From NCBI GenBank assembly GCA_028821395.1, contig JAPPGP010000077.1, forward strand, positions 1 to 36,189: a stretch of DNA of 36,189 bases, given 5' to 3'. Positions within the stretch are counted from its first letter, which is position 1; the number at the start of each line of letters is the position of its first letter. Below are positions 9,037 through 26,002 of this stretch, piece after piece. The notes under the pieces were generated by a model. It was given only the letters and a program-made list of their open reading frames with translations. It was not told where the DNA came from and ran no database searches. The stretch comes from Defluviicoccus sp. Lineage in GTDB: Bacteria > Pseudomonadota > Alphaproteobacteria > MPNO01. The translations under genes and the position numbers were made by a program.

Positions 9037-9064
9037 CGAGGCGCGGGATCTTGACCCGCCTCGC
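9036..9064 (+). terminator. Hairpin after the HEPN-like gene
   Basis: GCGAGGCGCGGG (9036-9047) pairs with CCCGCCTCGC (9055-9064) through a 10-bp stem with one bulged base and a 7-nt loop, beginning at the last base of the stop codon. No T-run follows, so it is at best a weak or factor-aided terminator separating this pair from the oxidase operon. Confidence 0.4.
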
Positions 9065-9103
9065 CGCGATGGCGAAGTTGCGCCGCCGGCGGAAGGGGCG
9101 GGG

Positions 9104-9979: not shown

Positions 9980-10458
9980 CCCGGGAGATCGCGCTCACCG
10001 TCAACGGAAGGGAGCGGCGCGCGAGCGCGGTGCCGCGCATCACGCTGGTCGATTTCCTGCGCGACGCGCTCGGGCTGACCGGCACCCATATCGGCTGCGA
10101 GCACGGGGTGTGCGGCGCGTGCACGATCCTGCTCGACGGGGCGGCGGTGAGAAGCTGCCTGATCTTCGCCGTGCAGGCCGACGGCCACGAGGTGACCACG
10201 GTCGAGGGGCTGGCCGGCCCGGATGGCGGGATCGGCGATTTGCAGGACGCGTTCTGGGAGTGCCACGCCTTGCAGTGCGGCTACTGCACGCCGGGCATGC
10301 TGGTCGCCGGCCATGCGCTGCTGGCCGAGAACCCCGAGCCCGACACCGAGGCGATCCGCGAGGCCATATCGGGCAATCTCTGCCGCTGCACCGGCTACAC
10401 CCAGATCGTCGAGGCGATCGCGCTCTGCGCCGCGAAGCGCCGGGAGGGCGGGCGGTGA
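9976..10458 (+). CDS. Molybdenum hydroxylase [2Fe-2S] (small) subunit, CoxS/XdhC-like
   Basis: A 160-residue iron-sulfur subunit with both expected clusters. The plant ferredoxin-type cluster is bound by C41, C46, C49 and C61 (GCEHGVCGACT...SC), and the all-helical C-terminal domain cluster by C101, C104, C136 and C138 (QCGYCTPG and LCRCTGY). Length and motifs match the family exactly. It relays electrons from the molybdenum centre to FAD. The start overlaps the FAD-subunit stop by 4 bp, and its own stop overlaps the GTG start of the large subunit by 4 bp, giving coupled translation of the three subunits. Confidence 0.95.
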   Translation: MTREIALTVNGRERRASAVPRITLVDFLRDALGLTGTHIGCEHGVCGACTILLDGAAVRSCLIFAVQADGHEVTTVEGLAGPDGGIGDLQDAFWECHALQCGYCTPGMLVAGHALLAENPEPDTEAIREAISGNLCRCTGYTQIVEAIALCAAKRREGGR

Positions 10459-12863
10459 ACGGGCACGGCGCCAACTACCGCTACGTCTCGCGGAAGCGGC
10501 GCACCAAGGAGGACGGGCGGTTCGTGGCCGGGTCGGGGCGCTTCGCCGCCGACATCGCGGTGCCGGGGATGAAGCACGTCGCGCTGGTGGCGAGCCCGCA
10601 CCCGCGCGCCAATATCCTGAACGTCGACACAAGCGAAGCGCTGGTGAGCCCGGGGGTGCACGCGGTGCTGACCGGCGAAGAGCTGGCGGCGGAGACCGCG
10701 CCGTTGTTCAACGGGCTCGACATCCCGAACGTAAAGTGGTTCCCGCTGGCGGTCGGGATGGCACGCTACGCCGGCGAATGGGTGGCCGCGGTGGTCGCCG
10801 ATTCGCGCTACCTCGCCGAGGACGCGGCCGAGCTGGTCGCGGTCGAGTACGAGCCGCTGCCCGCCGCGGTCGGGATCGAGTCGCTGCTGGAGCCCGATTC
10901 TCCCCTCGTCCATCCCGGGCACGGCAGCAACGTGCTGGTGCGCAAGAGTTTCGAATGGGGGCCGGTCGAGGCGGATTTCGCGGCCTCCGAGCACACGCTC
11001 TCCTACCGCGCGCGCTGGGGGCGGTCGTCCACGGTGCCGATAGAGACCTTCGGCGTGGTCTCGCGCTGGGATCCCGTCCGCGAAATCCTCGACGTCTGGG
11101 CGTCGATCCAGATGCCCAACTACCAGGAGCAGATCGCGAACGCGCTAAGAATCCCGACCAATGCGATCCGCGTCCACAACGACGTCGATGTGGGCGGCAG
11201 CTACGGCGTCAAGCGGGGCATCAAGCACACGGTGATAGCCGGCTACCTCGCGCGCAAGCTGGGCATGCCGGTACGCCTCATCGAGGACCGGCTCGACAAC
11301 ATGTCGGGCGGCGACGCGCACGGGCCGGACCGGCTGTTCGACGTGACGCTGGCCTTCGACAATGACGGCACCATCCGCTCGATGAAGCTGCGGGCGATCG
11401 ACGACGTGGGCGCCTATCCGGGGCGCGGGCCGCTCCAGCTCGGCAAGCCGATCACCGCCCTGGTCGGCCCCTACCGGCTCTCCAGCGTCGCCTATGAGGC
11501 GATCTCGGTGACCTCGAACAAGACCGGCCAGGTGCCGGTGCGCGGTTTCGGCCAGTCGCCGACCAACTTCATGATCGAGACCGGCATCGACCTAGTCGCC
11601 CGCCGTCTCGGCATCGACCGGATCGAGCTCCGCCGCCGCAACCTGATCCGGAGCGACCAGTTCCCCTGGCGCATCCCGACCGGCACCGAGTACGACTCGG
11701 GCGACTACCACGCGGTGCTGGAGAAGGCGCTCGACCTCGCCGATTACGACGCGCTCCTGGCGAGGCGCGAGGCGGCGCGCGCGGCGGGCAGGCTCGCCGG
11801 GATCGGCATCGCCACCTGCCTGGAGCCCGGCGGCGGCAACAACATCTTCGAGCAGCTCCTCAACGAGAAGCTGACCATCACCACCTTCGTCGAGTCCTGC
11901 CTGATGCGCGTCGATGCGCACGGCCACGTGACCGCGGCGATGTCGACCACCACCTCGGGCCAGGGGCACGAGACCCTGATCGCGACCATCGCCGGCGAGG
12001 AGCTGGAGCGCGATCCCGACACCATCCGCGTCACCCACGCCGATTCGCTGGAGGCGCTCCCCACCAGGAGCCCGGTGGCGAGCCGGATGGCGATCGTGCT
12101 CGGCAGCGCGACGTCCGAGGCCGCGCGCAGGATCAGGGCCAAGATGGTTCGCATCGCCGCCCACAATCTCGATGTGGACGAGGGGCGGGTGGAGTACCAG
12201 GCGGGAACCTTCTTCGTCCGCGGCGAGCCCGCGCGCAAGCTGGCGTGGGAGGAGATCGCCGCCATCGCGCACCGCCAGTTCCACCGCCTGCCGCCCGGCA
12301 TGGACCCCTGTTTGCAGGAGTTCTCCGTGCTCCAGGTGCCGGGCGCCTCGGGCCAGCTGCCCAACGAGAAGAAGGAGATCCAGCTCTACCCCTGCTTCTC
12401 CTTCCAGGCGCATGTCCCCTATGTCGAGATCGACCCGGGCACCGGCAAGGTCGAGGTGCTGGACTACGCGATCGGCCACGACTGCGGCACCGTGATCAAC
12501 CCCGACATCGTGCGCGGCATGATCGTGGGCGGGCTGGCGCACGGCATCGGCGCGGCGCTCCTGGAGAAATTCGCCTATGACGAAGACGGGCAGTTCCTCT
12601 CGGGCTCCTTCGTCGACTATCTGCTGCCGTCGTCGCACGAGATTCCCATCGTGCGCGACATCGAGCACTGCACCCCCTCGCCGAAGACCTCGCTCGGCCA
12701 GAAGGGCTCGGGCGAGGGCGGTTATCTCGGCGCGCCGGCGGCGATCGCGAGCGCTGTCAACGACGCGCTCGCCCCGCTCGGCATCTCGCTCACCGAGCTG
12801 CCGATGCGGCTCTGCGACATCGAGGCGGCGATCCACGAGAAACGAACGGAGCGGACCGGATGA
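10455..12863 (+). CDS. Molybdenum hydroxylase catalytic (large) subunit, CoxL/XdhA-like
   Basis: An 802-residue molybdopterin-binding subunit. I start at GTG 10455, which overlaps the preceding stop (GTGA) and gives MNGHGANYRYVSRKRRTKEDG, a normal N-terminus for the family. The a/b hammerhead domain fills about 20-140. GQGHET (502-507) is a cofactor-contacting motif, and GEGGYLGAP contains the catalytic glutamate E754. The loop that reads AYRCSFR or AYRGAGR in CO dehydrogenase form I or II enzymes here reads PVRGFGQ (361-367), so it is not a CO dehydrogenase. Such enzymes hydroxylate N-heterocycles, aldehydes or purines; the substrate is unknown. The linked amidohydrolase suggests ring hydroxylation followed by hydrolysis or decarboxylation. 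Confidence 0.93.
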   Translation: MNGHGANYRYVSRKRRTKEDGRFVAGSGRFAADIAVPGMKHVALVASPHPRANILNVDTSEALVSPGVHAVLTGEELAAETAPLFNGLDIPNVKWFPLAVGMARYAGEWVAAVVADSRYLAEDAAELVAVEYEPLPAAVGIESLLEPDSPLVHPGHGSNVLVRKSFEWGPVEADFAASEHTLSYRARWGRSSTVPIETFGVVSRWDPVREILDVWASIQMPNYQEQIANALRIPTNAIRVHNDVDVGGSYGVKRGIKHTVIAGYLARKLGMPVRLIEDRLDNMSGGDAHGPDRLFDVTLAFDNDGTIRSMKLRAIDDVGAYPGRGPLQLGKPITALVGPYRLSSVAYEAISVTSNKTGQVPVRGFGQSPTNFMIETGIDLVARRLGIDRIELRRRNLIRSDQFPWRIPTGTEYDSGDYHAVLEKALDLADYDALLARREAARAAGRLAGIGIATCLEPGGGNNIFEQLLNEKLTITTFVESCLMRVDAHGHVTAAMSTTTSGQGHETLIATIAGEELERDPDTIRVTHADSLEALPTRSPVASRMAIVLGSATSEAARRIRAKMVRIAAHNLDVDEGRVEYQAGTFFVRGEPARKLAWEEIAAIAHRQFHRLPPGMDPCLQEFSVLQVPGASGQLPNEKKEIQLYPCFSFQAHVPYVEIDPGTGKVEVLDYAIGHDCGTVINPDIVRGMIVGGLAHGIGAALLEKFAYDEDGQFLSGSFVDYLLPSSHEIPIVRDIEHCTPSPKTSLGQKGSGEGGYLGAPAAIASAVNDALAPLGISLTELPMRLCDIEAAIHEKRTERTG

Positions 12864-13846
12864 TCATCGACACCCACTCGCACCACGTGCCGGAAGCGAT
12901 GCTGGACGACCTGGTGAGCGGCAGGGCCTCCTTCCCCTCGGTCGAGCTCTTGGCCGAGGACGGGAAGTACCGCCTCGCCTTCGCCGGCGGCACGCCGACG
13001 CGGCCGGTCATGCCGGGGCTGCGGAATGTTGAGCCCCGGCTCGGCTGGATGGCGGAGCAGGCGGTCGACTTCCAGGTCTGCGCCGGCTGGCTCGACTCCT
13101 TCGGCTATTCCATCCCGGCCGAGGAAGGGCTCGCCTGGAGCCGCTTCGTGAACGAGCATCTGAGCCGGGCAGCGGGCGAGAACGCGGGCTTCGTGCCGCT
13201 CGCCACCGTGCCGCTGCAGGACGGCGAGACCGCCGCCCGGGCGCTGCAAGAGGCGATAGGGCAGGGGTTCTCCGGCGCCATGATCGGCACCCAGCCCAAG
13301 GGCGGCTCGGGCAAGCTCGACGATGCGGAGCTCGACCCCTTCTGGCAGGCGGCCTCCGATCTCGGCGCCGTGCTCTACCTCCACCCGATGTTCGGCAGCG
13401 ACGATGAGAGGCTGCACGATTTCGGCATGATGAACGCGGTCGGCCGGGTTACCGACGAGACCATCGCGGCGGCCCGCCTGCTCTATGCCGGGCACATGTT
13501 CCGCTTCCCCGGCATGAAGCTGATCCTCTCGCTCGGCGGCGCGGCGCTGCCCTATGTGCTGGGCCGGGTGTGCAAGAACTACGAGGACGACGACACGCTC
13601 GTCTACGACCCGCGCGAGGGGCTGAAGCGGATGTATTTCGATTCCATCGTCTACGATCCGCCGGCGCTGCGCTACCTGATCGACCTGGTCGGCGCCGAGC
13701 GCGTGGTGCTGGGCTCGGACTACCCGTTCTCCATCGGCGACCTCGAGCCCTCGCGCGTGGTCCGCGCCGCGAAGCTGGACGACGCGGACACGCAAGCGAT
13801 CCTCGGCGGCACCGCCGCGCGGCTGTTCGGCGTGGGGAGCGCGTGA
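12860..13846 (+). CDS. ACMSD-like amidohydrolase family 2 protein
   Basis: A 328-residue TIM-barrel protein related to aminocarboxymuconate-semialdehyde decarboxylase and similar metal-dependent decarboxylases or hydrolases. DTHSHHVP (4-11) gives the HxH pair, H175 (LYLHP) the third histidine and D287 (GSDYPF) the aspartate. The histidine of the usual F-A-H-G-G-x-x-P motif is missing: the site reads LSLGGAALP with Leu225, although the surrounding GG-x-x-LPY-x-L-G-R is kept. The chemistry may therefore differ. Start ATG overlaps the large-subunit stop by 4 bp, so it is the fourth gene of the molybdenum hydroxylase operon and probably handles its product. Confidence 0.83.
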   Translation: MIIDTHSHHVPEAMLDDLVSGRASFPSVELLAEDGKYRLAFAGGTPTRPVMPGLRNVEPRLGWMAEQAVDFQVCAGWLDSFGYSIPAEEGLAWSRFVNEHLSRAAGENAGFVPLATVPLQDGETAARALQEAIGQGFSGAMIGTQPKGGSGKLDDAELDPFWQAASDLGAVLYLHPMFGSDDERLHDFGMMNAVGRVTDETIAAARLLYAGHMFRFPGMKLILSLGGAALPYVLGRVCKNYEDDDTLVYDPREGLKRMYFDSIVYDPPALRYLIDLVGAERVVLGSDYPFSIGDLEPSRVVRAAKLDDADTQAILGGTAARLFGVGSA

Positions 13847-13859
13847 GAAGTGCCCATCC

Positions 13860-13971
13860 CCCCATTGTCACCCCGGCCGGAGCGCAGCGGAGAGCCCGGG
13901 CCCAGGGCCCCGAGATCGGGCGCCGCACCGCCCGCTCTGGGCCCCGGGTCAAGCCCGGGGTGACAATGGGG
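13860..13971. repeat. 112-bp REP-like element with perfect 17-bp terminal inverted repeats
   Basis: CCCCATTGTCACCCCGG (13860-13876) is perfectly inverted at 13955-13971. Between the arms is GC-rich sequence with smaller nested palindromes (CCCGGGCCCAGGGCCCC against GGGCCCCGGG). The left arm plus 'CCGGAGCGCAGCGGAGAGCC' recurs near 15032, and the right core AAGCCCGGGGTGACA resembles the one near 112-126. It encodes no protein. It may be a mobile REP-type unit, and the stem could stop readthrough from the operon ending at 13846. Confidence 0.75.
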
Positions 13972-14918: not shown

Positions 14919-15476
14919 TCCCGGTCGCGCCGATGCCACGATTCGTCATGCCCGAACTTGTTCCACGACTGTCCGGTTCGGATTTTCAACGCGGGCTCCG
15001 CGCCCATGACCGAGAACATTTCCGCCCCCCCGTTGTCACCCCGGCCGGGGCGCAGCGGAGAGCCGGGGTCCAGGGAAGCCGGGCGAGGGCGGTGCCTGGG
15101 CCCTGGGCTCCGGATCGAGTTTGGGGTGACTTGGCGTGAAAGTCAGTAGCATGTTGATTTCTAACGGCTATCTGTTCATTCAGCGACAAACTTCACACTG
15201 GATCGGAAGATCAGTCATCACCTCGAATGCGGATTTTTTCAGTACAGGGGCGACCATTTTCTGTGAGTGGCGGTGGAATACCAATTTCGGGGAAACTGTT
15301 CCGTAACCGGTCGCTCAGACCGTGAAGAACCAGATTGAGTGAGGGAGCTCGAGGGGCGCGGGTCAATCGAGCCTCTTGATTGTCGATCGGCGGGTGAATG
15401 CGAATGGTAGCGGCGGGGACTGGCCTGTCGGGTTCCGGAAGCGACGCGACCGCCTGGAGGGCCGGCCGCTCGCAGG
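14919..15476. other. 558-nt gene-free region with repeat remnants
   Basis: No supported gene. At 14946-14962 a half REP core (CGTCATGCCCGAACTTGTTCC) appears without its partner arm, and 15028-15130 holds a diverged copy of the 13860 element. From about 15140 to 15380 the base content falls well below the neighbours and stop codons occur in all frames. The minus-strand TRAP cluster ends here, convergent with the plus-strand operon. I see no clear terminator. Confidence 0.6.
15028..15130. repeat. Diverged copy of the 13860 REP-like element
   Basis: The left part, GTTGTCACCCCGG (15032-15044) plus CCGGGGCGCAGCGGAGAGCC, closely matches the left arm and flank of the element at 13860. The right end retains GGGGTGAC (15123-15130), but the outer bases of the arms no longer pair. 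Two copies of one element within 1.2 kb flank the CinA/ArsC-like gene pair. Confidence 0.6.
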
Positions 15477-17396
15477 CTACTCGGTCGATGGTTTCCCGGA
15501 GCTTTCGCCAAGCTCACGACCGCCTCTCGTCTTCGACAGCCAGAGCCAAAGGGCAAGTGCCGCCGCGACCCCGATGACATCGCTGAACGTCTCCGACGTC
15601 ATCAGGGCCAATCCGACCGCGACGAGCAGCAGCCGCTCCAGCCAGTGCAGCCGCCGAACGATGAAGCCCGCCACCGCCGCGGCCAGGCAGCCGGCGCCCG
15701 CGATCGCCGTCGCCATCGCGATCGCGACGTCGAGCCAGTGGCCGACAAGGAGCAGTTCCGGGTAGAGCACGAACAGGAACGGCGCAACATAGGCGACCAC
15801 GCTCAGCTTCATCCCCTCGATGCCGGTACGAAAGGGATCCGCGCCGGCCATCGGGCCGGAGACGAAGCAGGCGAACGCCATCGGCGGCGTCACATAGGAC
15901 ATGATGCCGAAGTAGTAGATGAAGAGATGCGCCGCCAGGGGTTCGATGCCGAATTCCTGAAGCGCCGGCGCGACCAGGACGGCGAGAAGGATGTAAATCG
16001 CGACCGCCGGCATGCCCATGCCCAGAACGATGCTGGCGAAGGCGGTGAAGACGAGCAGGACCGGCAGCGCATCGCTCGCCATCAGGATCAATGCCTGCGA
16101 CAGGGTGGAGCCGAGCCCGGTGATGTTGACCACGCCCAGTATGAGGCCGGCCAGAGCGGCGATGACGATCGGCTGGACGAGCGAGCGCCCCGTGCTTTCG
16201 ATGACGCCGAGGAGCGCGCGCGGGCGAAGACTCGCGCGGTTGACGGCCGCCATGATCAGCAACAACGCAGCCGTGGCGTAGATCACCGACGTGTCGGGGG
16301 CCAGGAACTTGACGAAGAGGCAATAGATCAAGACCGCGAGGGGGACGACGAACATCAACGCGCCGCGCAACATGCTCTCGATCCGCGGCAGATCCTCGGG
16401 CTTCACATTGGGCAGTTCTTCGCGCTCAGCCACCAGATGCACCTGGATGAAGACGGCGATGTAGTAGAGCAGCGCCGGTCCCAACGCGGCGAGCGCGACT
16501 TCGCTGTAGGGAATTTCGGTGAACTCGGCCATCAGGAACGCCGCCGCTCCCATGACCGGCGGCGCGAGCAAACCGCCGGACGAGGCCACCGCCTCCACAC
16601 CTCCCGCGAACGCCGGCCGGTAGCCGACCCGTTTCATCAACGGGATCGTGACCATTCCGGTGAACGCGACATTGGCCGCGGCACTTCCGGTCATGGTGCC
16701 GAACAACGAGCTGGAGAGGACGCTCATCTTCGCCGGGCCGCCGCGATACCGGCCCAGGGCACGCATGGACAGATCCGTCAGGAACTGCCCGCCGCCGCTG
16801 GCGAACAACAGGTTTCCAAAAAGGACGAAAGCCAGCACCACGCCAGCCATGACCCCCAGCGGCGCGCCGTAAAGCCCCGAAGGGTCGAAGTAGAGGTAGG
16901 TGACCGCTCGCGGCCAGGACGCGGGCCGCGCATAGAGTATGTCGGGGAAATAATCGGAATAGACGGCGTAGAGAATGAAGATTGCGACGACGACGATAAG
17001 CGGCATGCCCGCGGTGCGCCGCACCATCTCGAACACCAATACGATGCCGATGCCGCCAAGGACGAGGCGCTCGGTGTTGACGAACTCCATCAGCGTCGTG
17101 ATGTCGGCGAACGTGACCGCGATGTAGGCATTGCAGGCCAGGGCGCCGGCAATGCAGATCCATTCGTACCACGGCGCCCGGGTCTGTCCCGCCAACCGTC
17201 TGATCGGCGGATAGGTAAGGAAGACGTGGACGGAGGTCAGCGCGAGGATGATCGAGAGATACTGCGAGCGATGGTAGGAGACGCCGGCGTAGAGCGGCAG
17301 GTTAAGAATATCCGCGATACCGATGACCACCATGGCCATCAGGGCGAATCGCGCGATCCACCCCGATGGCCCCGTCAGATTTCGCTGTGCGCCCAC
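15477..17396 (-). CDS. Fused TRAP transporter permease, 4TM/12TM (DctQM fusion, TAXI type)
   Basis: A 639-residue membrane protein in which the small and large TRAP permease subunits form one chain, typical of TAXI-type TRAP systems. Hydrophobic segments near 17-35, 43-60, 78-98 and 110-125 make the small-subunit part. The large part has characteristic phrases 'FGTMTGSAAANVAFTGMVTIPLMKRVGY' near 233-260, 'SSGGLLAPPVMGAAAFLMAEF' and 'IVLGMGMPAVAIYILLAVLVAPAL'. It would drive sodium- or proton-coupled uptake of the ligand delivered by the TAXI receptor. The start is a GTG at 17396, 38 nt after the receptor gene, without an obvious ribosome site. Last gene of the ten-gene cluster starting at 24637. 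Confidence 0.93.
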   Translation of the reverse strand: MGAQRNLTGPSGWIARFALMAMVVIGIADILNLPLYAGVSYHRSQYLSIILALTSVHVFLTYPPIRRLAGQTRAPWYEWICIAGALACNAYIAVTFADITTLMEFVNTERLVLGGIGIVLVFEMVRRTAGMPLIVVVAIFILYAVYSDYFPDILYARPASWPRAVTYLYFDPSGLYGAPLGVMAGVVLAFVLFGNLLFASGGGQFLTDLSMRALGRYRGGPAKMSVLSSSLFGTMTGSAAANVAFTGMVTIPLMKRVGYRPAFAGGVEAVASSGGLLAPPVMGAAAFLMAEFTEIPYSEVALAALGPALLYYIAVFIQVHLVAEREELPNVKPEDLPRIESMLRGALMFVVPLAVLIYCLFVKFLAPDTSVIYATAALLLIMAAVNRASLRPRALLGVIESTGRSLVQPIVIAALAGLILGVVNITGLGSTLSQALILMASDALPVLLVFTAFASIVLGMGMPAVAIYILLAVLVAPALQEFGIEPLAAHLFIYYFGIMSYVTPPMAFACFVSGPMAGADPFRTGIEGMKLSVVAYVAPFLFVLYPELLLVGHWLDVAIAMATAIAGAGCLAAAVAGFIVRRLHWLERLLLVAVGLALMTSETFSDVIGVAAALALWLWLSKTRGGRELGESSGKPSTE

Positions 17397-17434
17397 GCGC
17401 TTGCACGCGTCAGCGGACAGCGGCGCTCATGCAT

Positions 17435-18505
17435 TCAACCCTTGGACCGGCGGACCAGCTCGGCCTGGCGCGCTTCGAGGTCTCCCGTCCAAAGGCCTTT
17501 CGACTTGTAGAACGCGGCCGCGCCCGGGTGGTACGGCATCACGGTGTGAGCGCCGGCCCAGCGCTTGTCTGCGGGCAGCCAGCCCCTGACCAGGGGGTGG
17601 GACTTGCCGAGCTCGTCCTGGTGCGCGTAGAGCGTTTCGAGCACGCGCTGGACGACTCCCTTGTCAAGGCTGTTTCGGGCGATGATGCAGTAGTCGAACG
17701 TCAGGGCCTGGATCGGCTTGTCGACTCCGGGCACGCCTGCGCGCTGCGTGCTGATGTAGTAGGCCGGTTCGACCTTCTGCATCCGAGCGACCGCCGCCGC
17801 ATCGGTGTACATCGGAATGAAGCGGACCTTGCGCGCGGCGTTCATCCGTTGAATCAGGGGAATTCCGGGCGGCGTGCCCACGACATCGAACTTGTTCGTG
17901 TTCCACAGATTTACCAGAACCTTGTAGGACGAGACAGGAACGGCGGTGAGCCCCGCCTCTTCGAGCCCGCCGGCAAATCCGAGATTGGCAAGCCCCGCGA
18001 GATTGAGGTGGTCGATGACCGGATTGATCCACTTGTGGCTGAGGCGTTTGCCCTTCATCCACGTCTTGAGCTGGTCGGTGGTATGGACCGGTGAATCCGC
18101 GGGGACCATGAACGCCCATGACTGCTTACGCCCGAGGGCGACGAGGGCGAACGTGCGGTTGGGCTTGCCGGCATAGGCGTTGGTGCCCCAATACGCCCAG
18201 GACAGCTCGGTCACCGAGGTCATGCCCAGATCGATGTCGCCGCTCTTGATCATTCCCATCCACTTGGCGGCGTTGCCGACCGCGCGGACCGTCGCCTTGG
18301 TTCCGACGTGCTGGGTGAGCACCTTGGCAAAGCCGTTGGCCATGGTGTTTGCGACACCGCCCACGCGGTTGGAGGCGATGATGATCTGCTTGGGCAGCTT
18401 GACCGCCATGCTGCCGGACTCGGCATTCGCCGCCGGAATGGCCCCGAAGAGCATCGTTCCGGCGATGACCGCCAGCGCCAAACTCGACACGGTTCTATTA
18501 GCCAT
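17435..18505 (-). CDS. TAXI family TRAP transporter solute-binding protein
   Basis: A 356-residue periplasmic receptor. A signal peptide (about 1-28, TVSSLALAVIAGTMLFGA...AANA) is followed by the mature start ESGSMAVKLP. The TAXI features are 'IIASNRVGGVANTMANGFAKVL', the 'DIDLGMTSVTELSWAYWG' segment and the C-terminal 'MPYHPGAAAFYKSKGLW'. ATG 18505 is preceded by GGGAGGAAGAG, a strong ribosome site; an upstream frame extension lacks one. It captures an organic acid and hands it to the fused permease encoded just downstream (38-nt gap). The neighbouring 18556 gene is a relative without signal peptide. Confidence 0.92.
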   Translation of the reverse strand: MANRTVSSLALAVIAGTMLFGAIPAANAESGSMAVKLPKQIIIASNRVGGVANTMANGFAKVLTQHVGTKATVRAVGNAAKWMGMIKSGDIDLGMTSVTELSWAYWGTNAYAGKPNRTFALVALGRKQSWAFMVPADSPVHTTDQLKTWMKGKRLSHKWINPVIDHLNLAGLANLGFAGGLEEAGLTAVPVSSYKVLVNLWNTNKFDVVGTPPGIPLIQRMNAARKVRFIPMYTDAAAVARMQKVEPAYYISTQRAGVPGVDKPIQALTFDYCIIARNSLDKGVVQRVLETLYAHQDELGKSHPLVRGWLPADKRWAGAHTVMPYHPGAAAFYKSKGLWTGDLEARQAELVRRSKG

Positions 18506-18555
18506 CTCTTCCTCCCATCGGTGTTCCAGGCGCGAGAAGGCCGGCGCGTTTCCCG

Positions 18556-19509
18556 TCAGAGGTAGCCCTTCTCGCGGTAATACTTCTCCGCGCCGGGGTG
18601 CAACGGCACGGGAACGTTGCTTCCGAGCCATGACAGATCCACCGGCCCGGTCAGCGCCGCGTGCGGTTGGGGAAACAGCGCCTCGATCTCGCCCTTCTGT
18701 TCGTCGAGCGCCGCGATCGTCAGATAGGCGAGCTCGTCGTCCATGTCCTCGCAGCAGAACAAAATCCAGCCGCTGAAATCCACCGTGGGCACATCTTCCG
18801 TCATGCCCCGGTAGCGCGTCCTCTCGATGACGCCGCGCTTCCAGCCGCGCTCGGTCTCGAGCCGTTGCAGGACCTCTTCTTCGACCGGCAGGAAGACGAT
18901 GTCGTGTTGCTCGGTCAGCGTCGTCCAGCGCCGGGTCATCAAGGCCTCGTCGAATATCGCGTCGAACCCGGGCGAGGCGGGCGCGATACCCGGCTGATTG
19001 ATGAACCGGGGGCGGTCGCGCAGCAGCTTGCCGCCCCAGCTCTCGATATCCTCGAAGGTGATGCCGTGCTCGTTGAGAATGATCTCGGTCGCCCAGACCG
19101 CGGGGTGGCGGTTCTCCGGCGGGACCGTGGAAACCTTCAGCGGATATTTCCGCTCCCGCAGCTCGCCGAACGTGTCGATGCCGCATTCCTTTCGCACGGC
19201 GAAGGCCATCCGGTCGTCATGCGGGAAATGGGCGAGCGCGCGCACCGGCATGGGCCTGTCGAAAGGATCGCGCCCCTCCATCGCCAGACGAACCATCCAG
19301 GCGGGGGTCGTGATCGCCATGTGGAAGGCCCCGCTGCAAACCAGTTCGACGCTCTGGAAGCACATCTCGCCCGGGTCGGCGGTGGTGACCGACGCGGTCG
19401 AACCCTTGGGCAGCCGGCTGTAGTAGCCGTCGAGCCCGAGCGCGATGCGGCCGCCGATAGTGAGCCAGTTATGGCCGCCGCCCAGAATGCGCACATCGAT
19501 CCGTTCCAC
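18556..19509 (-). CDS. TAXI-like protein lacking a signal peptide
   Basis: A 317-residue protein related to TAXI receptors. It ends with the typical 'VPVPLHPGAEKYYREKGYL', opens with a G-x-x-x-x-WLTIGGRIALGL segment, and has 'CSGAFHMAITTPAWM' at the position where receptors contact ligand. Unlike the 17435 receptor it begins directly with MERIDVRILGGG: no hydrophobic leader and no lipobox. It is predicted to be cytoplasmic. ATG 19509 lies 13 nt after the Rieske gene. It might be a ligand-sensing or enzyme protein built on the same fold, as with the Pht5-type decarboxylases at 5258. Function unknown. Confidence 0.75.
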   Translation of the reverse strand: MERIDVRILGGGHNWLTIGGRIALGLDGYYSRLPKGSTASVTTADPGEMCFQSVELVCSGAFHMAITTPAWMVRLAMEGRDPFDRPMPVRALAHFPHDDRMAFAVRKECGIDTFGELRERKYPLKVSTVPPENRHPAVWATEIILNEHGITFEDIESWGGKLLRDRPRFINQPGIAPASPGFDAIFDEALMTRRWTTLTEQHDIVFLPVEEEVLQRLETERGWKRGVIERTRYRGMTEDVPTVDFSGWILFCCEDMDDELAYLTIAALDEQKGEIEALFPQPHAALTGPVDLSWLGSNVPVPLHPGAEKYYREKGYL

Positions 19510-19522
19510 TGTCTTCTCCCCG

Positions 19523-19855
19523 TTAGCGGGCGATCCTTACGAACACGTCACCGTCCCGGACGTCGACCGGGTAGACCGTTGCCGCCTGTCGGACGTCGGA
19601 CAGGACGTTCCTGCCCGTTCGCAGGTCGTAACGGAACCGGTGCCAAGGGCAGGTCACTTCCATCCGGTCGGTGCTGACCATCCCTTCTCCAAGAGGGCCC
19701 TGCCAGTGCGGGCAGACGTTGTCGAGCGCAAAGACCTCGTCCGCGACGCGGAAGAGCGCAATCGCCCGATCTTCGGCACGCACGACCCGTCCCGCCCCTT
19801 CGGGGACGTCCGCGATCGCGCATACGCGCAGCAGCGTTCCCGGGTCCGCTACCAT
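19523..19855 (-). CDS. Rieske [2Fe-2S] ferredoxin
   Basis: A 110-residue single-domain Rieske protein. Cluster ligands are C48-x-H50 (VCPHWQGPLGEG) and C69-x2-H72 (TCPWHRFRYDLRTG), the standard CxH...CxxH pattern with the expected spacing. It resembles ferredoxin components of dioxygenases and NirD-like proteins. No Rieske oxygenase alpha subunit or reductase is nearby, so its electron partner is unclear; the luciferase-like monooxygenase or the two HAAO-like proteins in the cluster are the candidates. Start ATG 19855 overlaps the upstream gene's stop by 7 bp. The larger open frame upstream is antisense or shadow to the neighbour's coding. Confidence 0.9.
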   Translation of the reverse strand: MVADPGTLLRVCAIADVPEGAGRVVRAEDRAIALFRVADEVFALDNVCPHWQGPLGEGMVSTDRMEVTCPWHRFRYDLRTGRNVLSDVRQAATVYPVDVRDGDVFVRIAR

Positions 19856-20424
19856 CGAGAGCGCGCCTCCGATTCGGCCGGGCTGTCCTCGGAGGGGTAG
19901 AATCCGTAGGCGGGGGAGTGGACGTGACCGCATTCGGGACAGGTACGAAGCCGCTCGTCGTCGTTGAAGGCTCGTGCCAAGCCCAGCTCGACGTCCCAGA
20001 ATCTCTTCCACCGCGCAATTCCGGTGTCGAAGTCGTGCCGGTTGAATTGGCAAGCGCATTTGGGACAAACCCAAAGAAGGGCATCCCGGCCGTAGTTGCC
20101 GGGTCGCCCGCCGGTGACCAGGAGATAATAGATCTCGCCCTGCTGGCGGGTGCGGAAATAGATCATGTCCGCATCGCAGATTCGCCAGTAGCCGAACAGA
20201 TGTTCGATATGATTCGGCGTGCCCCCGCGGATGACGTGCATCAGGTCGTCTTTCTCGGGGATTCGAAGCGCCCCCGCGTCGTGCAGCTCCCAGACCGTGA
20301 GCGGAGGATCGTCCTCGGCAAAACATCCTGACCAGACCACGTAGTCGACCGTCGCTTGCCACCGGCCGAAACCGCCGCCCTCCGGCTTCAGGGGGATGTC
20401 GTAGTGCAGGATCGGCGTGTCCAC
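19849..20424 (-). CDS. HAAO-like zinc-ribbon protein B (second of a paralogous pair)
   Basis: A 191-residue protein. The C-terminal four-cysteine site C120-x2-C123-x38-C162-x2-C165 (WVCPKC, TCPECGHVH) resembles the rubredoxin-like metal site of bacterial 3-hydroxyanthranilate 3,4-dioxygenase, including the FNDDERLRTCPECG phrase. It is a paralogue of the 20453 protein: both share H-x-FGYW, the 38-residue Cys spacing and a closing acidic helix ending in R-x-W. Where paralogue A has His100 and Glu106, B has Arg81 and Met87, so cupin-type metal ligands are missing. I chose GTG 20424, 28 nt past the upstream stop; the ribosome site is weak and the start uncertain. Possibly a non-catalytic partner of A. 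Confidence 0.65.
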   Translation of the reverse strand: MDTPILHYDIPLKPEGGGFGRWQATVDYVVWSGCFAEDDPPLTVWELHDAGALRIPEKDDLMHVIRGGTPNHIEHLFGYWRICDADMIYFRTRQQGEIYYLLVTGGRPGNYGRDALLWVCPKCACQFNRHDFDTGIARWKRFWDVELGLARAFNDDERLRTCPECGHVHSPAYGFYPSEDSPAESEARSRW

Positions 20425-20452
20425 CGCTGGCGATCCCGGCTCCGCCGCGCCC

Positions 20453-21091
20453 CTACCAGAGCTTTCGTGCCGCCGCTTCTTCGGGGGTGTCCTTCGCGCT
20501 GTTCCAGCAATAGCCCAGCGGGTTCTGATGTCCGCATTCGGGGCATTTCCGATTGGCCGCATCGGCGTTGTACGAGCGAACCGCCTTGGCTTCGGCCTTC
20601 CAGAACCCGTTGAAGCCCAGCCGACCGCTCTCGTACACGAAATCGTGGAGCAGGGTCAGGCATTTCTCGCAGTACCACGCAAATGCGTCCGTCTCCTCAC
20701 CGGTCGGATTGCCCATTACGACGACGAAATACCCCATATCGCCCGGCACCCGCTCGGGGATCGGCATGTACAGCTCGTCCTTGTCGTTGATGTGCCAGTA
20801 GCCGAAATTGTGCGACACCGTGTGCGGCGTCCCGGCGGTGGTGACATGGACCGAGAGCGGGCTGTGCGACCATTCGACCAGGCCGTCCGGTCCCAGTTCC
20901 AGATGATGGCTGATGTTCCCCTTTCTGGGATCGTTCAGCCCCGCCGAGGAGATGCTGCGGCGGCGAAGGCCGAGGACATTGTCGCCGGTCGCCTTGAACG
21001 TCGAATAGTGTTTGAGAACGCGATCCTCGAAGAAATCCCAATCGTCCACGATCTTTTCGAGCGGCTCGTCGATCATGATCTCGGTGAACAT
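20453..21091 (-). CDS. HAAO-like zinc-ribbon protein A (first of a paralogous pair)
   Basis: A 212-residue protein with a C-terminal four-cysteine metal site C141-x2-C144-x38-C183-x2-C186, close to the rubredoxin-like site of bacterial 3-hydroxyanthranilate 3,4-dioxygenase (HAAO). Before it, 'GYWHINDKDELYMPI' places His100 and Glu106 six residues apart, like the H and E iron ligands of HAAO. The second cupin half seems too short (about 35 residues from Glu106 to the first Cys) to hold the usual third ligand. It is therefore HAAO-like, not HAAO. ATG 21091 lies 23 nt after the VOC gene. Its paralogue B follows after 28 nt, which suggests a heteromer. Confidence 0.68.
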   Translation of the reverse strand: MFTEIMIDEPLEKIVDDWDFFEDRVLKHYSTFKATGDNVLGLRRRSISSAGLNDPRKGNISHHLELGPDGLVEWSHSPLSVHVTTAGTPHTVSHNFGYWHINDKDELYMPIPERVPGDMGYFVVVMGNPTGEETDAFAWYCEKCLTLLHDFVYESGRLGFNGFWKAEAKAVRSYNADAANRKCPECGHQNPLGYCWNSAKDTPEEAAARKLW

Positions 21092-21114
21092 GGCGCTATC
21101 GCTCCAATGTGGCG

Positions 21115-21654
21115 CTACTTGTATTTCGTTTCGAACTTGACGGGTCCGTCCAGTGTCCGGTTGCCAAGCTTCGCGTCTTCGGACAGCGGCGTGAGCCTGC
21201 CGTCGCCGTCATGCTCGACTCGGCCTTCCAGGTTGAACATGACGACGGCGAATTCGAACTGGATGCCGTCCGGGTCCGTAAAGTAGATCGACTTGTCGAA
21301 CAGGTGCCGGCCGGTGACTTCCGAGACCTCGATTCCTGCATCCGCCACGCGTCGGCGCATGTCCTCGAGCTCTTCCTCGGTGTCGACGTGGAAGGCCAGA
21401 TGGTAGAAGCCGGCGTAGCTCCGGTCGTCCGCCCGGGGCGGCGGCTTCAGCTCTCTCCCCGGCCAGTACCAGTAGGAGATGACCTGGTCGCGGCCAATGT
21501 CGATCATGAAGTGGTGCCGCTCGGGATTGTGCAGCACGAGGTCGAGCTGGCACCGCATGCCGATCGATTCCCAGAACGCGATCGTGCGGTCCATGTCGGT
21601 GCAGGCGAACTGTACGTGATCGACGCCCTTCAGGCCGGGGGCGGAATTGCGCAT
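21115..21654 (-). CDS. VOC (glyoxalase/extradiol dioxygenase) superfamily protein
   Basis: A 179-residue vicinal-oxygen-chelate protein. H13 (GVDHVQFACTDMDRTIAFWE), H85 or H89 (FYHLAFHV) and E134 (DPDGIQFEFAV) are the expected metal ligands, in the right order for a type I extradiol dioxygenase or glyoxalase-like fold. It is shorter than catechol dioxygenases (about 290), with about 40 extra residues after the last ligand. It could cleave or isomerise a ring-derived intermediate. Start ATG 21654; the frame stays open upstream only because the preceding pseudogene runs into it without a stop. It sits between that pseudogene and the HAAO-like pair. Confidence 0.85.
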   Translation of the reverse strand: MRNSAPGLKGVDHVQFACTDMDRTIAFWESIGMRCQLDLVLHNPERHHFMIDIGRDQVISYWYWPGRELKPPPRADDRSYAGFYHLAFHVDTEEELEDMRRRVADAGIEVSEVTGRHLFDKSIYFTDPDGIQFEFAVVMFNLEGRVEHDGDGRLTPLSEDAKLGNRTLDGPVKFETKYK

Positions 21655-21719
21655 GGGCGAAATCTTCCTCCTGGTCCCGCTCTCGAAGGCCGGATCGCCG
21701 TCGGGTGGAAGACATCCTG

Positions 21720-22673
21720 GAGGATCGAGCCTGACACCGTGGGGGACGCTTGGCAAGCGGCACGCGTTCGCCACCACACTCTCCCCCCATTTGCAGCAAT
21801 CGGGGGCTTCCTCGACGGTCGTTGGCGGCTTGACTGCAAAGCAGCAACCCTCCTCCAGCACCATGTCCAGCACCTCGGTCGGGTTCGGCCGGCCGGCGAC
21901 GACGGCTGCTCCAGCCGGCGGTAGGCGGCCCCGAGCGGCCCGGCCGTCCATCCGAACATGGGGGTGAAGCTTCCGCCTGCATCCGCGTTGGCGAACATCA
22001 TCCGTGCGAAGACGTGACGTTCCGAGACGCCGGCGCGGGCGTGTTCCCGGATCGCATTCAGCGTGGCCTCTGCGACCACGGCGCCCTTGCGGAGGAACTC
22101 GATCTCGTCCCGGGACTTGCACCATCGCGCCTCTCCGAGGATGGGGGTGGCGCTCACGAAACGGGTTTTGGGGAAGGACTCCGTCAGGATCTGGACCGAA
22201 CGCCAGTTCACCTCCCCTTCGGCGGCGCGGCAATGCGTGAAACGGTCCGAATCGAGCCCTGCAATGGCGATTGTCGCGTTCCGATATGACGGATTCTCGT
22301 TGAGCCAGGAGACGATCGTCGCGCCGCCCGCGCCGCGGATCGCCGAGCGGATGTCGCCGATCCAGTTCGACGACGGCCACACGCCGGGGCGCGACAGTCA
22401 GGCGGTCGCCCTGCCCTCGACCGGGAAGGCGACGGTCACCTCATCGCTGTTCTCGCCGAGCTGGGTCGGGTAGCGCGGATCGGCCTGGCCCCGGCCGTGG
22501 GCGTTGGTGCAGGGCGGGCACACGATCAAATCGACGCCGTCGCGCTTCATCAGCCCGCGCGCCCTCGACCGGCGGCGGCGACGCTCGTTGCGCGAAAATA
22601 CCGCGTTGCGCCGGCCCTCCGACCACTTCTTGGGATCCGTCTTTACAGCCGGCACCAGTTCGATGGATGTCAT
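21720..22673 (-). pseudogene. Decayed M24-family (Xaa-Pro peptidase/creatinase-like) gene
   Basis: Three pieces of one gene are readable. ATG 22673, with GGGAGAGG 7 nt upstream, opens a creatinase-N-like segment (LMKRDGVDLIVCPP, DPRYPTQLGENSDEV, FPVEGRATA) that hits an in-frame TGA at 22398-22400. The same frame then continues (LSRPGVWPSSNWIGDIR ... EARWCKSRDEIEFLRKGA ... FTPMFGWTAGP) until about 21900. The sense then moves to another frame (NPTEVLDMVLEEGCCFAVKPPT, KWGESVVANACRL), which ends near 21720 without its own stop. About 100 residues expected between the last two blocks are absent. One nonsense codon, a frame change and an internal deletion make it non-functional. Neighbours on both sides look intact, so the loss may be tolerated. 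Confidence 0.85.
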
Positions 22674-22704
22674 CGAAGACCTCTCCCGCAATCGGCGGAG
22701 CAGC

Positions 22705-23493
22705 CTAGGGATGGACCAGATCGCTCTCCTGGCGGACCAGGAATTTTCCGTGTCGTGCAAGAAAGTCCCCGACCACTTCCGCCAGCGCCTCCGGCCGGTC
22801 GGCATCGATCGCGTGGGCCGCGTCATAGACCAGCATCAGGTGGCAATCGGGGAGGACTTGCCGATAGAGCCTCGCACCCTCCGGCGGCGTGATCGTGTCC
22901 TCGGTACCGAAGAGAGCCAGCACCGGGACGTCGAGGGTCGCCAATCGGTTCTCGAATGCGGCATCGCGCGGCGGGCCGAGCAGCCGGGCAGACAGGGCAC
23001 GCTGCCTTGCATGCACGTCCGGCGGTACGGGATCGCGGCGCGCCTCCGGGCTATCGGGGTGCCTGTGCAGGGTGTGCGGTCCGATGTCGGGTGTGGGGTT
23101 GATGCGGATCGCGGCGGGCGAAATCAGTACCACGGCGCCGACGGGCTCCCGCCGTTCCAACGCCATCGACAAGGCGAGCTTCCCGCCGAAGGAGGTCCCC
23201 ATCAGGTCGTAGCGTTCGATCCCCAGGGCGGCGACCGCCAGGTTCATGGTCGCCGCCAGTTCGCCCATGTTCCGGGACCGCTCGTTGAGCGGCGAATTGC
23301 CGAAGCCCGGCGCTTCGAAGGCGATCACCCGGCGGTCCCGGGCAAGAATGTCGTGCGCGCGGGAGAGCCTGAGACCTCCGCCGCCGTGCAGGCAGACGAG
23401 AGGTCTACCGGATCCCGCCTCACGGTATCGGATTCGAAACCCGTCGGCCTCCACTTCGGTGTCGTCGAATGCCGCGCCCGGTGTATCGTCCAT
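22705..23493 (-). CDS. Alpha/beta hydrolase
   Basis: A 262-residue alpha/beta-fold hydrolase with a complete triad: nucleophile S101 in GTSFGG (99-104), D199 (FGTEDTITPPE) and H227 (AAHAIDADRPE). The oxyanion loop LHGGGG is at 35-40. The pattern resembles meta-cleavage product hydrolases and related C-C or ester hydrolases (MhpC-like), but specificity cannot be read. Start ATG 23493, 28 nt after the monooxygenase stop; 31 nt before the pseudogene. In this cluster it could hydrolyse an ester or ring-fission product. Confidence 0.88.
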   Translation of the reverse strand: MDDTPGAAFDDTEVEADGFRIRYREAGSGRPLVCLHGGGGLRLSRAHDILARDRRVIAFEAPGFGNSPLNERSRNMGELAATMNLAVAALGIERYDLMGTSFGGKLALSMALERREPVGAVVLISPAAIRINPTPDIGPHTLHRHPDSPEARRDPVPPDVHARQRALSARLLGPPRDAAFENRLATLDVPVLALFGTEDTITPPEGARLYRQVLPDCHLMLVYDAAHAIDADRPEALAEVVGDFLARHGKFLVRQESDLVHP

Positions 23494-23521
23494 CGGTTTT
23501 GCCTCACCGTATCAGGGACGT

Positions 23522-24637
23522 TCACAGCTCGTGCATTCGGGGCAGCACCTTCGTCCCGAACAGCTCGATCGATCGACGCGTGGCATCGCCATACTGGATG
23601 GCGATGGTTAGATCGAGCACGCCCGCTCCCAGCGTGTCGCGGATCTTCTTGATCTGCTCGAACACCGTATCCGGACTGCCCGTCAGGAGCTGGCCGCGTC
23701 CGATACGGCCGCGTATTTGCTCGTCCGTGCGCTGCTCGCGATTGCGGCTCCGGTTGCGCTGCTCTTCGAGGTCCGCACCATAATAGCCGGCATTGGCCAC
23801 CGCTTCCTCGACGGCCTGGTTGGCGCGCGAGATGTTGGTGCCCCGGCGGACAGCCGTTGGCGCCTTCAGGTCTTCGATGGCCTTGTCGTCGGTTTCCGCC
23901 ACGTGAAAGCCGAGTCGATAGACGATGTTCTCGGGCTCCGGGGTCCAGCCGAAGCGCTCGGCCTCGCGGCGGTAATGTTCGGCGGCGCGGGTGGCCCGTT
24001 CCAGATGGGTCGCCGCGAATCCCAGCCCGATTCGGTTCCGTGCGGCGAACGAGCCCGATTCGGGGCTCGACCCCGACATGTATATCGGCGGATGCGGCTT
24101 TTGCAGCGGACGTGGCCATATCGAGATGCTGCGGAACTGAAAATAGCGGCCCTGCCAACCGAACGGTTGCGGCTCGGTCCAAACCCGGCGGATGAGCTGC
24201 AGGGCCTCCTCGAAGCGTCCGCGCGACTCCGCGGGGTTGACGTTGTAGGTCACGTATTCGTTGGGTGTGCCGCGAAGCATGCCGGCGATGATGCGGCCGC
24301 CGGTCATCAGGTCCAGCATCGCGAATTCCTCGGCGACGCGAACCGGGTTGAGGATCGGAGTGGTCGGACCGAGAAGCGCGATCCTGGCGCGACGAACGAC
24401 CTGGCTGAGCGCGCCCGCCAATATCGTCGGATTGGGCGTGAGCGAGTACGGGCCAAAATGATGCTCGGCCACCGTGATCCAATCGAAGCCGAGCTCGTCC
24501 GCCATCCTGAACTGCTCGATCGCGGTCGCGAGCGACTCGGCCGCCGCGTCGTCGGAGTAGTAGTCGACCGGAACCGGCCACACGCCTTCCGGCGTGGTGC
24601 CGTGATAGTGGACCGAATTGAAAAGCGTGGCCTTCAT
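23522..24637 (-). CDS. LLM-class flavin-dependent monooxygenase (luciferase-like)
   Basis: A 371-residue TIM-barrel flavin enzyme. Typical phrases are 'EQFRMADELGFDWITVAEHHFGPYSLTPNP' (AEHHF near 57-61), 'RVAEEFAMLDLMTGGRIIAGMLRG' and 'PHPPIYMSGSSPES'. These are the landmarks of bacterial luciferase-like alpha-chain monooxygenases that use reduced FMN and O2. No flavin reductase gene is in the window, so FMNH2 would come from elsewhere. First gene of the ten-gene minus-strand cluster, facing a 777-nt region and the XRE-cupin regulator at 25415. Likely the first oxidative step of the pathway. Confidence 0.9.
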   Translation of the reverse strand: MKATLFNSVHYHGTTPEGVWPVPVDYYSDDAAAESLATAIEQFRMADELGFDWITVAEHHFGPYSLTPNPTILAGALSQVVRRARIALLGPTTPILNPVRVAEEFAMLDLMTGGRIIAGMLRGTPNEYVTYNVNPAESRGRFEEALQLIRRVWTEPQPFGWQGRYFQFRSISIWPRPLQKPHPPIYMSGSSPESGSFAARNRIGLGFAATHLERATRAAEHYRREAERFGWTPEPENIVYRLGFHVAETDDKAIEDLKAPTAVRRGTNISRANQAVEEAVANAGYYGADLEEQRNRSRNREQRTDEQIRGRIGRGQLLTGSPDTVFEQIKKIRDTLGAGVLDLTIAIQYGDATRRSIELFGTKVLPRMHEL

Positions 24638-25414: not shown

Positions 25415-26002
25415 GTGAATGGTGAATTGAGCCAGGACGGGGACAAGAGCATCAGGCTCGGCAGACAGATACGTCACTGGCGTCTGGTGAAGGGCCTCAC
25501 ACTGCGAGACTTGGCAAAGCTCGTCGGGTGCTCGGAGAGCCTGTTATCGAAAATCGAGAATGACCGGGCGACGCCCTCCTTGAGCACATTGCACAAGACC
25601 GCCGTCGCGCTGGGCTTGAGTATCAGCGACATATTCGGGTCCGGAGAGAGTGAAGTCGTCACACGGGCGGACAAAAGGAATGTGCTTCTTGTCGACGGCG
25701 ATGAGTCCGACGGAGACCGAATACGGCTGGAACAGCTTGTGCCTGCCAAGAAGGGCAGATTGCTTCAGGCCGACATGTACGTCATTCCGCCGGGTGGCGG
25801 AAGCAACGGAGAGATTCAGCATTCCGGAGAGGAGTTCGGCTTCGTAGTGGAGGGATCGCTCTTACTTACCATCGAGAACATGTCCTATCTTCTTGAGGCG
25901 GGCGACTCATTCGTCTTTCGTTCGGAACTGGCACATTCATTCGCCAACAACGGAAATACGGTTGCTCGCGTACTCTGGGTAAACACGCCTCCCACTTTCT
26001 AG
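25415..26002 (+). CDS. XRE-family transcriptional regulator with C-terminal cupin domain
   Basis: A 195-residue regulator. Residues about 15-70 form an Xre helix-turn-helix (LGRQIRHWRLVKGLTLRDLA...CSESLLSKIENDRATPSLSTLHKTAVALGLSISDIF). Residues about 115-190 form a cupin_2 effector-binding domain (IPPGGGSNGEIQHSGEEFGFVVEG, LEAGDSFVFRSELAHSFAN). The start is GTG 25415, with AAGGAG (25401-25406) 8 nt upstream. Such regulators often respond to small metabolites and control adjacent transport or catabolic genes (PuuR-like). It faces away from the 24637 cluster and towards the end of the ABC transporter operon, so it could control either. Confidence 0.9.
   Translation: MNGELSQDGDKSIRLGRQIRHWRLVKGLTLRDLAKLVGCSESLLSKIENDRATPSLSTLHKTAVALGLSISDIFGSGESEVVTRADKRNVLLVDGDESDGDRIRLEQLVPAKKGRLLQADMYVIPPGGGSNGEIQHSGEEFGFVVEGSLLLTIENMSYLLEAGDSFVFRSELAHSFANNGNTVARVLWVNTPPTF

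Follow-up and report, generated by a model that had tools for sequence, protein, structure and literature searches.

The window (the whole 36,189-nucleotide stretch analysed here, contig JAPPGP010000077.1 of Defluviicoccus sp. assembly GCA_028821395.1, from a source genome of 4.94 Mb in 266 contigs) carries on its minus strand, from 24637 to 15477, a cluster of nine intact genes and one broken M24 gene. At its centre lie two paralogous proteins related to bacterial 3-hydroxyanthranilate dioxygenase (HAAO), here called HAO1 and HAO2, followed by a Rieske ferredoxin and a TAXI-fold protein, TAXI1. The conserved core is HAO1-HAO2-ferredoxin, often with TAXI1, and the remainder is a lineage-specific pathway; we tentatively suggest that the HAO pair is an iron oxygenase fed by the ferredoxin. 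Read from 24637 downwards, the genes are:

23522..24637, minus strand: LLM monooxygenase (luciferase-like, probably flavin-dependent), 371 aa; PF00296, 188 bits
22705..23493, minus strand: alpha/beta hydrolase (ABH), 262 aa; PF00561, 73 bits; homologue beside LLM in loci L008, L009, L019, L034 and L035
21766..22673, minus strand: broken M24 gene (creatinase/prolidase family); pieces 85% and 82% identical to residues 1-258 and 351-399 of the L008 protein
21115..21654, minus strand: VOC-family protein, 179 aa; PF00903, 56 bits (longer frame scored); outside the window in L008 and L009 only
20453..21091, minus strand: HAO1, HAAO-related protein, 212 aa; putative H90/H100/E106 metal site and Cys4 site
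19849..20424, minus strand: HAO2, paralogue of HAO1, 191 aa, start not proven; Cys4 site without the His/Glu residues; profile E 1e-35 to HAO1
19523..19855, minus strand: Rieske-type [2Fe-2S] ferredoxin, 110 aa; PF00355, 59 bits; CxH...CxxH motif
18556..19509, minus strand: TAXI1, leaderless TAXI-fold protein, probably cytoplasmic, 317 aa; model pLDDT 91; NMT1_3, 79 bits
17435..18505, minus strand: TAXI2, TAXI solute-binding protein with a signal-like start; TIGR02122, 86.2 bits against a cut-off of 84.35; NMT1_3, 66 bits
15477..17396, minus strand: fused TRAP permease, 639 aa; TIGR02123, 592 bits against a cut-off of 320.65; DctM, 274 bits

A sequence-only reading of this DNA had described ten tightly spaced genes in one direction. 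The single strand and the spacing hold, the intact junctions being gaps of 13-50 nt or a 7-nt overlap, but M24 is broken by an in-frame TGA and two deletions, seen as 289- and 97-nt gaps relative to the sister loci L008 and L009, in both of which the frame is open (the homologue in L015 has Peptidase_M24 and Creatinase_N domains). With the starts chosen, the gaps are 28 nt from LLM to ABH, 31 from ABH to M24, 23 from VOC to HAO1 and 28 from HAO1 to HAO2; HAO2 overlaps the Rieske gene (start 19855) by 7 nt, and gaps of 13, 50 and 38 nt follow between Rieske and TAXI1, TAXI1 and TAXI2, and TAXI2 and TRAP. The HAO2 start was taken as GTG 20424; an alternative in-frame ATG at 20562 would run into HAO1. 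The LLM, alpha/beta hydrolase, VOC, Rieske and TRAP families named earlier are each backed by a Pfam or NCBIfam match. A promoter and terminator scan of the cluster returned signals at or below chance level, and none of 72,556 plasmid records matched the window at E 1e-5.

A scan of 84,980 species genomes identified 17 HAO1 loci in 16 genomes besides the window; the scan relies on exact short peptide matches and retrieves close relatives only, so that 17 is a lower bound. The hosts span two phyla (alphaproteobacteria, betaproteobacteria and one Paenibacillus), and the nearest kin of the window HAO1 are found in Defluviicoccus metagenome-assembled genomes (MAGs), at 97% and 94% identity. Close kin among the loci are L008/L009, L014/L015, L017/L018/L024, L020/L021 and L022/L023; L011 and L020 share one MAG, and L036/L037 (genomes G386 and G388) were taken as the same genomes as L009/L008 and counted once. 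In wider sampling, the HAO1 profile matched one of 385 genomes of the class (E 1e-10) and one of 398 of the phylum (E 1e-15), the single match being in each case the genome of the window itself (G000); among relatives it matched five of 41, all of the same genus: G000, G386 and G388 with full-length HAO1, G385 and G387 with only the HAO of a second, paralogous module (module 2, below).

Neighbours were counted by tblastn at 50% query coverage and E 1e-6, with the window excluded; 8 of the 17 loci have a flank of less than 9 kb on one side or both, and absences there are soft. The counts rest on tblastn, as script-made gene calls still err in some loci (L009, L069, L074) and one early set, which picked shadow frames in several loci, was kept only for the coordinates of a few Pfam-named genes. 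HAO2 is present in all 17 loci, within 110 nt of HAO1 in 16; in the exception, L013, it lies 4.3 kb off on the other strand, beside Rieske and TAXI1 genes of its own. The Rieske ferredoxin is found in 16 of 17 loci, each time no more than 1.7 kb from HAO1, and a TAXI1 homologue in 11. The other genes recur in few loci (M24 in 5, LLM in 4, ABH in 3, VOC, TAXI2 and TRAP in 2 each), and for this reason the full set of ten seems to have been put together in Defluviicoccus around a core that is smaller and more widespread. That the ten genes form one ancient unit is ruled out by the two-locus counts for VOC, TAXI2 and TRAP. The neighbourhood check proposed earlier, with the HAO proteins as anchors, thus bears out the recurrence of the Rieske and TAXI1 genes but hardly that of LLM (one of its four occurrences, in L020, belonging to another clade), VOC or TAXI2. 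A LigXa-type or related Rieske oxygenase occurs in five loci, and a ferredoxin reductase and a plant-type ferredoxin in three each.

HAO1 is markedly linked to a ferredoxin; canonical HAAO is not. As controls we used 20 canonical HAAO (PF06052) loci of relatives, 4-16 kb each, four of which (L065, L066, L073, L075) have less than 2 kb of flank on one or both sides. Within the available flanks, no Rieske ferredoxin lies within 2 kb of HAAO in any of the 20, and one lies at 5.1 kb; Fisher's test gives p ~1e-9 if loci are assumed independent, which they are not. Among the other genes, TAXI1 is found in 0 of 20 control flanks, TAXI2 in 2, TRAP in 3, ABH in 5 and LLM in 10. Proximity of LLM or ABH is by itself therefore not distinctive for HAO1, and LLM proximity alone was dropped as evidence in favour of a clade test (see below); the control LLM matches (24-32% identity) were searched without a coverage limit, against 50% coverage in the HAO1 loci. 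The control loci with LLM in their flanks are L066, L068-L074, L076 and L077, five of the ten having an ABH match too.

How close are HAO1 and HAO2 to HAAO? The pair had been called HAAO-like, and this stands for the C-terminal Cys4 domain, but not for family membership. No Pfam model passed for either protein, PF06052 included (HAO2, in its longer frame, gave one sub-threshold zinc-ribbon match), and the NCBIfam HAAO models score HAO1 at 30.7 bits (cut-off 220) and 23.6 bits (cut-off 145.95) and HAO2 at 25.2 and 19.2 bits. Compared as profiles, HAO1 and HAO2 align over 149 columns with E 1e-35, showing that they are paralogues. Canonical HAAO aligns to the HAO1 profile at residues 122-192 only (probability 98.5) and to the HAO2 profile at residues 111-172 only (96.8), in both cases the Cys4 domain, and HAAO is the best match of both profiles in a PDB sequence search, again over the Cys4 region. 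Structures were predicted for HAO1 and TAXI1 only; the HAO1 model (pLDDT 70) has HAAO for all of its top 20 Foldseek matches, the best at E 5e-4, with TM-scores mostly of 0.3-0.4. The columns of C141, C144, C183 and C186 are invariant in 36 sequences (15 HAO1, 5 module-2 HAO and 16 HAO2). H90, H100, N102, D103 and E106 are, together with the four Cys, invariant in 20 HAO1-type sequences, 15 HAO1 and the 5 module-2 proteins at ~30% identity. In the 16 HAO2 sequences the four Cys are kept in all, H90 in 3, H100 in 1 and E106 in none. We read this as HAO1 being the probable metal-binding subunit and HAO2 a degenerate partner, with H90, H100 and E106 as putative, conservation-based metal ligands; the three residues could not be aligned to the HAAO iron ligands, and the HAO1 model is of low confidence. 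A third, more distant HAAO-like pair is encoded by two genes in Defluviicoccus (L027, 3046-4467; L034, 3054-4358) and by one fused 439-aa gene in L013 (8577-9893), which abuts another Rieske ferredoxin; near this pair in L034, at 391-2342, a 2OG-Fe(II) oxygenase adjoins a leaderless NMT1-type protein.

The diverged paralogous module has a plant-type (Fer2) ferredoxin next to HAO in all five of its loci, and LLM and hydrolase genes also in two. These two, L034 and L035, come from congeneric genomes and show ABH, LLM, Fer2, HAO and an NMT1 receptor in a row; in Ramlibacter (L022, L023) the order is Fer2, TAXI1-like, HAO, NMT1. In the source genome of the window, the Fer2-HAO-NMT1 portion sits on contig C100 (L026), and close to the end of contig C171 there is a matching LLM with 96% identity to the L034 one; this is consistent with a module split by a contig break, the linkage being putative. 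The LLM family is common, with 27 matches in the source genome, the window's included. In a tree of 38 LLMs, which includes 18 of the genome's 26 other matches (the remainder being without a locus or of too little coverage), those of the window, L008, L009, L019, L034, L035 and C171 form a clade of seven (support 95/91), with the L020 LLM outside it. Two modules that diverged deeply thus both pair LLM with HAO but differ in their ferredoxin, which is of the Rieske type in one and of the plant type in the other, and we take the paralogous module as the best argument that electron delivery, and not one particular ferredoxin, is what HAO needs. LLM and ABH are likely partners of HAO because they recur in L019 and, beside ferredoxin and HAO, in L034 and L035.

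Where the electrons would come from is suggested by a few loci. The sequence-only reading had noted that the cluster lacks a Rieske oxygenase and a ferredoxin reductase and had left the ferredoxin's partner open; the absence was confirmed, as neither the L016 oxygenase (query RO_L016) nor the L017 reductase (query FdR_L017) has a match in the window at E 1e-4 or 1e-6, and our candidate for the partner is the HAO pair itself. In L017 and L018, from Paraburkholderia phenoliruptrix and Trinickia symbiotica, HAO1, HAO2, Rieske, Fer2 and reductase genes are contiguous, and in L016 reductase and Fer2 genes lie 6.4-6.6 kb from the HAO genes. The L017 reductase scores 288 bits to AndAa and 273 to HcaD, both below the model cut-offs, and has one match at E 1e-15 or better in the window's own genome (43%, E 1e-85, contig C154), making a shared reductase from elsewhere in the genome possible. 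The three-component Rieske dioxygenases (anthranilate AndA, phenylpropionate Hca) share with this system the Rieske ferredoxin and, in L016-L018, a reductase (AndAa/HcaD-like in L017); they differ in that the window has neither a Rieske oxygenase alpha subunit nor a reductase, with HAO1/HAO2 in the place of the former.

The cluster had also been credited with a TAXI-TRAP uptake system. TAXI2 and TRAP exceed their model cut-offs, and TAXI2 with its signal-like start (by inspection) and the fused permease qualify as a TAXI-TRAP transporter, but TAXI1 (18556-19509) does not belong to it by the same marks. TAXI1 is below the TAXI cut-off (70.3 against 84.35 bits), yet above that of Pfam NMT1_3, and has by inspection no signal-like start, nor any start codon in the 9 codons back to the preceding stop; TAXI2 is therefore the likely receptor of the transporter. 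The TAXI1 model (pLDDT 91) has its first strand from residue 5 and matches the TAXI receptors 1us4, 8u79 and 4ddd (TM 0.67-0.76). None of 16 aligned TAXI1-like proteins shows a signal-like N terminus by inspection, the starts of the second L013 copy, L018 and L023 being ambiguous. A crude hydrophobicity index is below 1.8 in 15 of these 16 rows (L012 reaches 1.84, in a stretch aligned to the fold's first helix) and at least 1.8 in 10 of 13 transport receptors, while the values of the remaining three hinge on which start is taken, so that the separation is imperfect. TAXI-TRAP transporters thus share TAXI2 and the fused permease with the cluster, which differs by its second, leaderless TAXI-like protein. 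We propose, by analogy, that TAXI1 may be a cytoplasmic enzyme. The precedent is 4,5-dihydroxyphthalate decarboxylase (9jp7), like TAXI1 a leaderless protein of periplasmic-binding-protein type and encoded near HAO genes in L016, where the protein matches 9jp7 at E 1e-83 and otherwise only the taurine receptor TauA, weakly (E 0.011). It is a precedent only: TAXI1 is TAXI-type by sequence and fold, its matches being TAXI receptors, and homology to the decarboxylase is unsupported. A tblastn search with the L016 decarboxylase across 20 loci retrieved itself only, with no second copy and no TAXI1 gene.

Several flanks point to aromatic acids, from which the substrate class of the window cluster may be surmised: catabolic genes for such acids lie in the available flanks of L012, L016 and L022. 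L012 has, upstream of HAO1, an FAD enzyme above the 3-(3-hydroxyphenyl)propionate hydroxylase subfamily cut-off, a gentisate-dioxygenase-like bicupin (below cut-off) and an FAA hydrolase. L016 combines a LigXa_C Rieske oxygenase with a Gfo/Idh/MocA dehydrogenase, a quinolinate phosphoribosyltransferase and the 4,5-dihydroxyphthalate decarboxylase, a set that we read as o-phthalate catabolism, and L022 has homologues of the oxygenase, dehydrogenase and phosphoribosyltransferase with a flavin/NAD/Fer2 reductase. A TAXI-TRAP system has been reported for o-phthalate import (review PMC13040137). Transporters in the HAO1 loci vary by lineage (TRAP, Liv-type ABC, NMT1-type ABC, MFS). With gene order varying and transporters swapped between loci, the linear route once read from gene order (uptake, oxygenation, hydrolysis, cleavage) is unsupported. 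Our search of the open-licence literature, which left most subscription papers outside, found no described operon with this gene set.

The reading that we favour, at a little under an even chance, is an iron oxygenase of two HAAO-related subunits that draws its electrons from a ferredoxin and acts on an aromatic or heteroaromatic acid taken up by the cell, with TAXI1 as a cytoplasmic enzyme. The terminal component of this non-heme iron enzyme, a relative of bacterial HAAO, would consist of HAO1 and HAO2: HAO1 would hold the active-site iron, and HAO2, devoid of the ligands, could be structural or electron-carrying, both subunits having a rubredoxin-like Cys4 site. Electrons would reach the pair from the neighbouring Rieske ferredoxin, directly or via the Cys4 sites, the ferredoxin itself being reduced by a reductase encoded elsewhere in the genome (a same-locus reductase is found in Paraburkholderia, Trinickia and Aurantiacibacter). 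Uptake of the acid would fall to TAXI2 and the fused permease, the cytoplasmic TAXI1 would act on either substrate or product, and LLM, hydrolase, VOC and M24 could provide lineage-specific further steps, LLM and hydrolase perhaps as the oldest partners. It is possible but doubtful that this amounts to a new class of ferredoxin-dependent mononuclear iron oxygenase, with the place of the Rieske oxygenase alpha subunit taken by a heterodimer of HAAO descent, whose catalytic and degenerate subunits both carry a Cys4 site, and with a receptor-turned-enzyme, the TAXI-fold protein, as its companion.

A number of observations weigh against the ferredoxin-fed oxygenase: (i), the reductase on C154 is beside a Rieske ferredoxin and a Rieske oxygenase of its own (both by eye), only 3 of 17 loci have a reductase, and in L016 it is nearer a Rieske oxygenase; (ii), the Rieske oxygenases of L011, L016, L022, L023 and, VanA type, L017 are potential ferredoxin users; (iii), the HAO1 model is of modest quality with low TM-scores to HAAO, and its cupin half cannot be aligned to HAAO by sequence, so that the metal site is guessed from conservation; (iv), the L012 catabolic genes lie 6-9 kb from HAO1; (v), the known HAO1 loci number only 17, several of them near relatives; and (vi), L024 (Candidatus Burkholderia humilis) is the one locus without a Rieske match, also in tblastn with the L017 Rieske protein at E 1e-3. 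In L024, HAO1 and TAXI1 are in broken pieces (span 8763-11647), which makes joint decay of the HAO module possible; a frame at the expected Rieske site starts like the L017 Rieske protein by eye.

HAAO is listed among the facial-triad (two-His-one-carboxylate) iron enzymes (PMC4019311). The most serious alternative, which we consider unlikely, is that HAO1 is an ordinary HAAO-type ring-cleaving dioxygenase with no need of electrons for turnover, the ferredoxin merely re-reducing ferric iron. HAAO is not known to require a ferredoxin; XylT, a plant-type ferredoxin, re-reduces the ferric iron of catechol 2,3-dioxygenase, and the paralogous module has a ferredoxin of this very type. HAO1 also keeps the HAAO-type Cys4 domain, shared with bacterial HAAO/NbaC (PF06052, PRK13264, TIGR03037). 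In contrast, the ferredoxin is nearly constant at HAO1 and, in the available flanks of the 20 control loci, absent within 2 kb of canonical HAAO, and three HAO1 loci add a reductase. HAO1 further differs from HAAO in its scores far under the curated cut-offs, its paralogous partner at 17 of 17 loci and its neighbouring ferredoxin at 16 of 17; two PF06052 genes are present elsewhere in the source genome. In addition, the sole invariant H-x5-E of HAO1 lies 35 residues ahead of the Cys4 site, against 67 in the genome's own canonical HAAO (by eye), which suggests that the iron site is laid out differently. Distinctly less probable is that HAO1 and HAO2 are not an oxygenase at all, but a zinc-ribbon accessory or substrate carrier, the ferredoxin serving a Rieske oxygenase or LLM. 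Rieske oxygenases are indeed found in 5 of 17 loci and the Cys4 site could hold zinc, but the 12 loci with no RO_L016 match in their available flanks keep HAO1 and HAO2, and 11 of these keep the ferredoxin; LLM occurs in 4 loci only, and H90, H100 and E106 are invariant down to ~30% identity. Finally, it is very improbable that the genes share no single pathway and are neighbours by chance or through the history of one lineage: the complete ten-gene set is found in Defluviicoccus only and LLM is common in the genome and in control flanks, but loci from two phyla have the core, and a single clade unites the HAO-linked LLMs of both paralogous modules.

Around the cluster, an XRE-type regulator with a cupin domain (25415-26002, plus strand, read from the translation) is divergent from it and could control either the cluster or the ABC-transporter genes beyond. 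Past the 3' end, on the opposite strand, an amidohydrolase-2 gene (12860-13846, plus) adjoins a molybdopterin xanthine-dehydrogenase-type subunit (9738-12863, plus), possibly another (hetero)aromatic pathway. A 50-nt direct repeat near the 3' end (13858-13907 and 15026-15075, 92% identical) is apparently intergenic and possibly a dispersed repeat, and at 2122-3003 (minus) lies an amidohydrolase related to 4-sulfomuconolactone hydrolase (316 bits, below the cut-off of 500).

If the ferredoxin-fed oxygenase is real, O2 activation by an iron enzyme of cupin/HAAO type would be coupled to a ferredoxin chain of the Rieske-oxygenase kind. No settled role is known for the Cys4 site in bacterial HAAO, and the HAO pair would point to a possible electron-transfer role for this site in HAAO relatives. 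The cytoplasmic TAXI-fold protein would, for its part, be a candidate enzyme.

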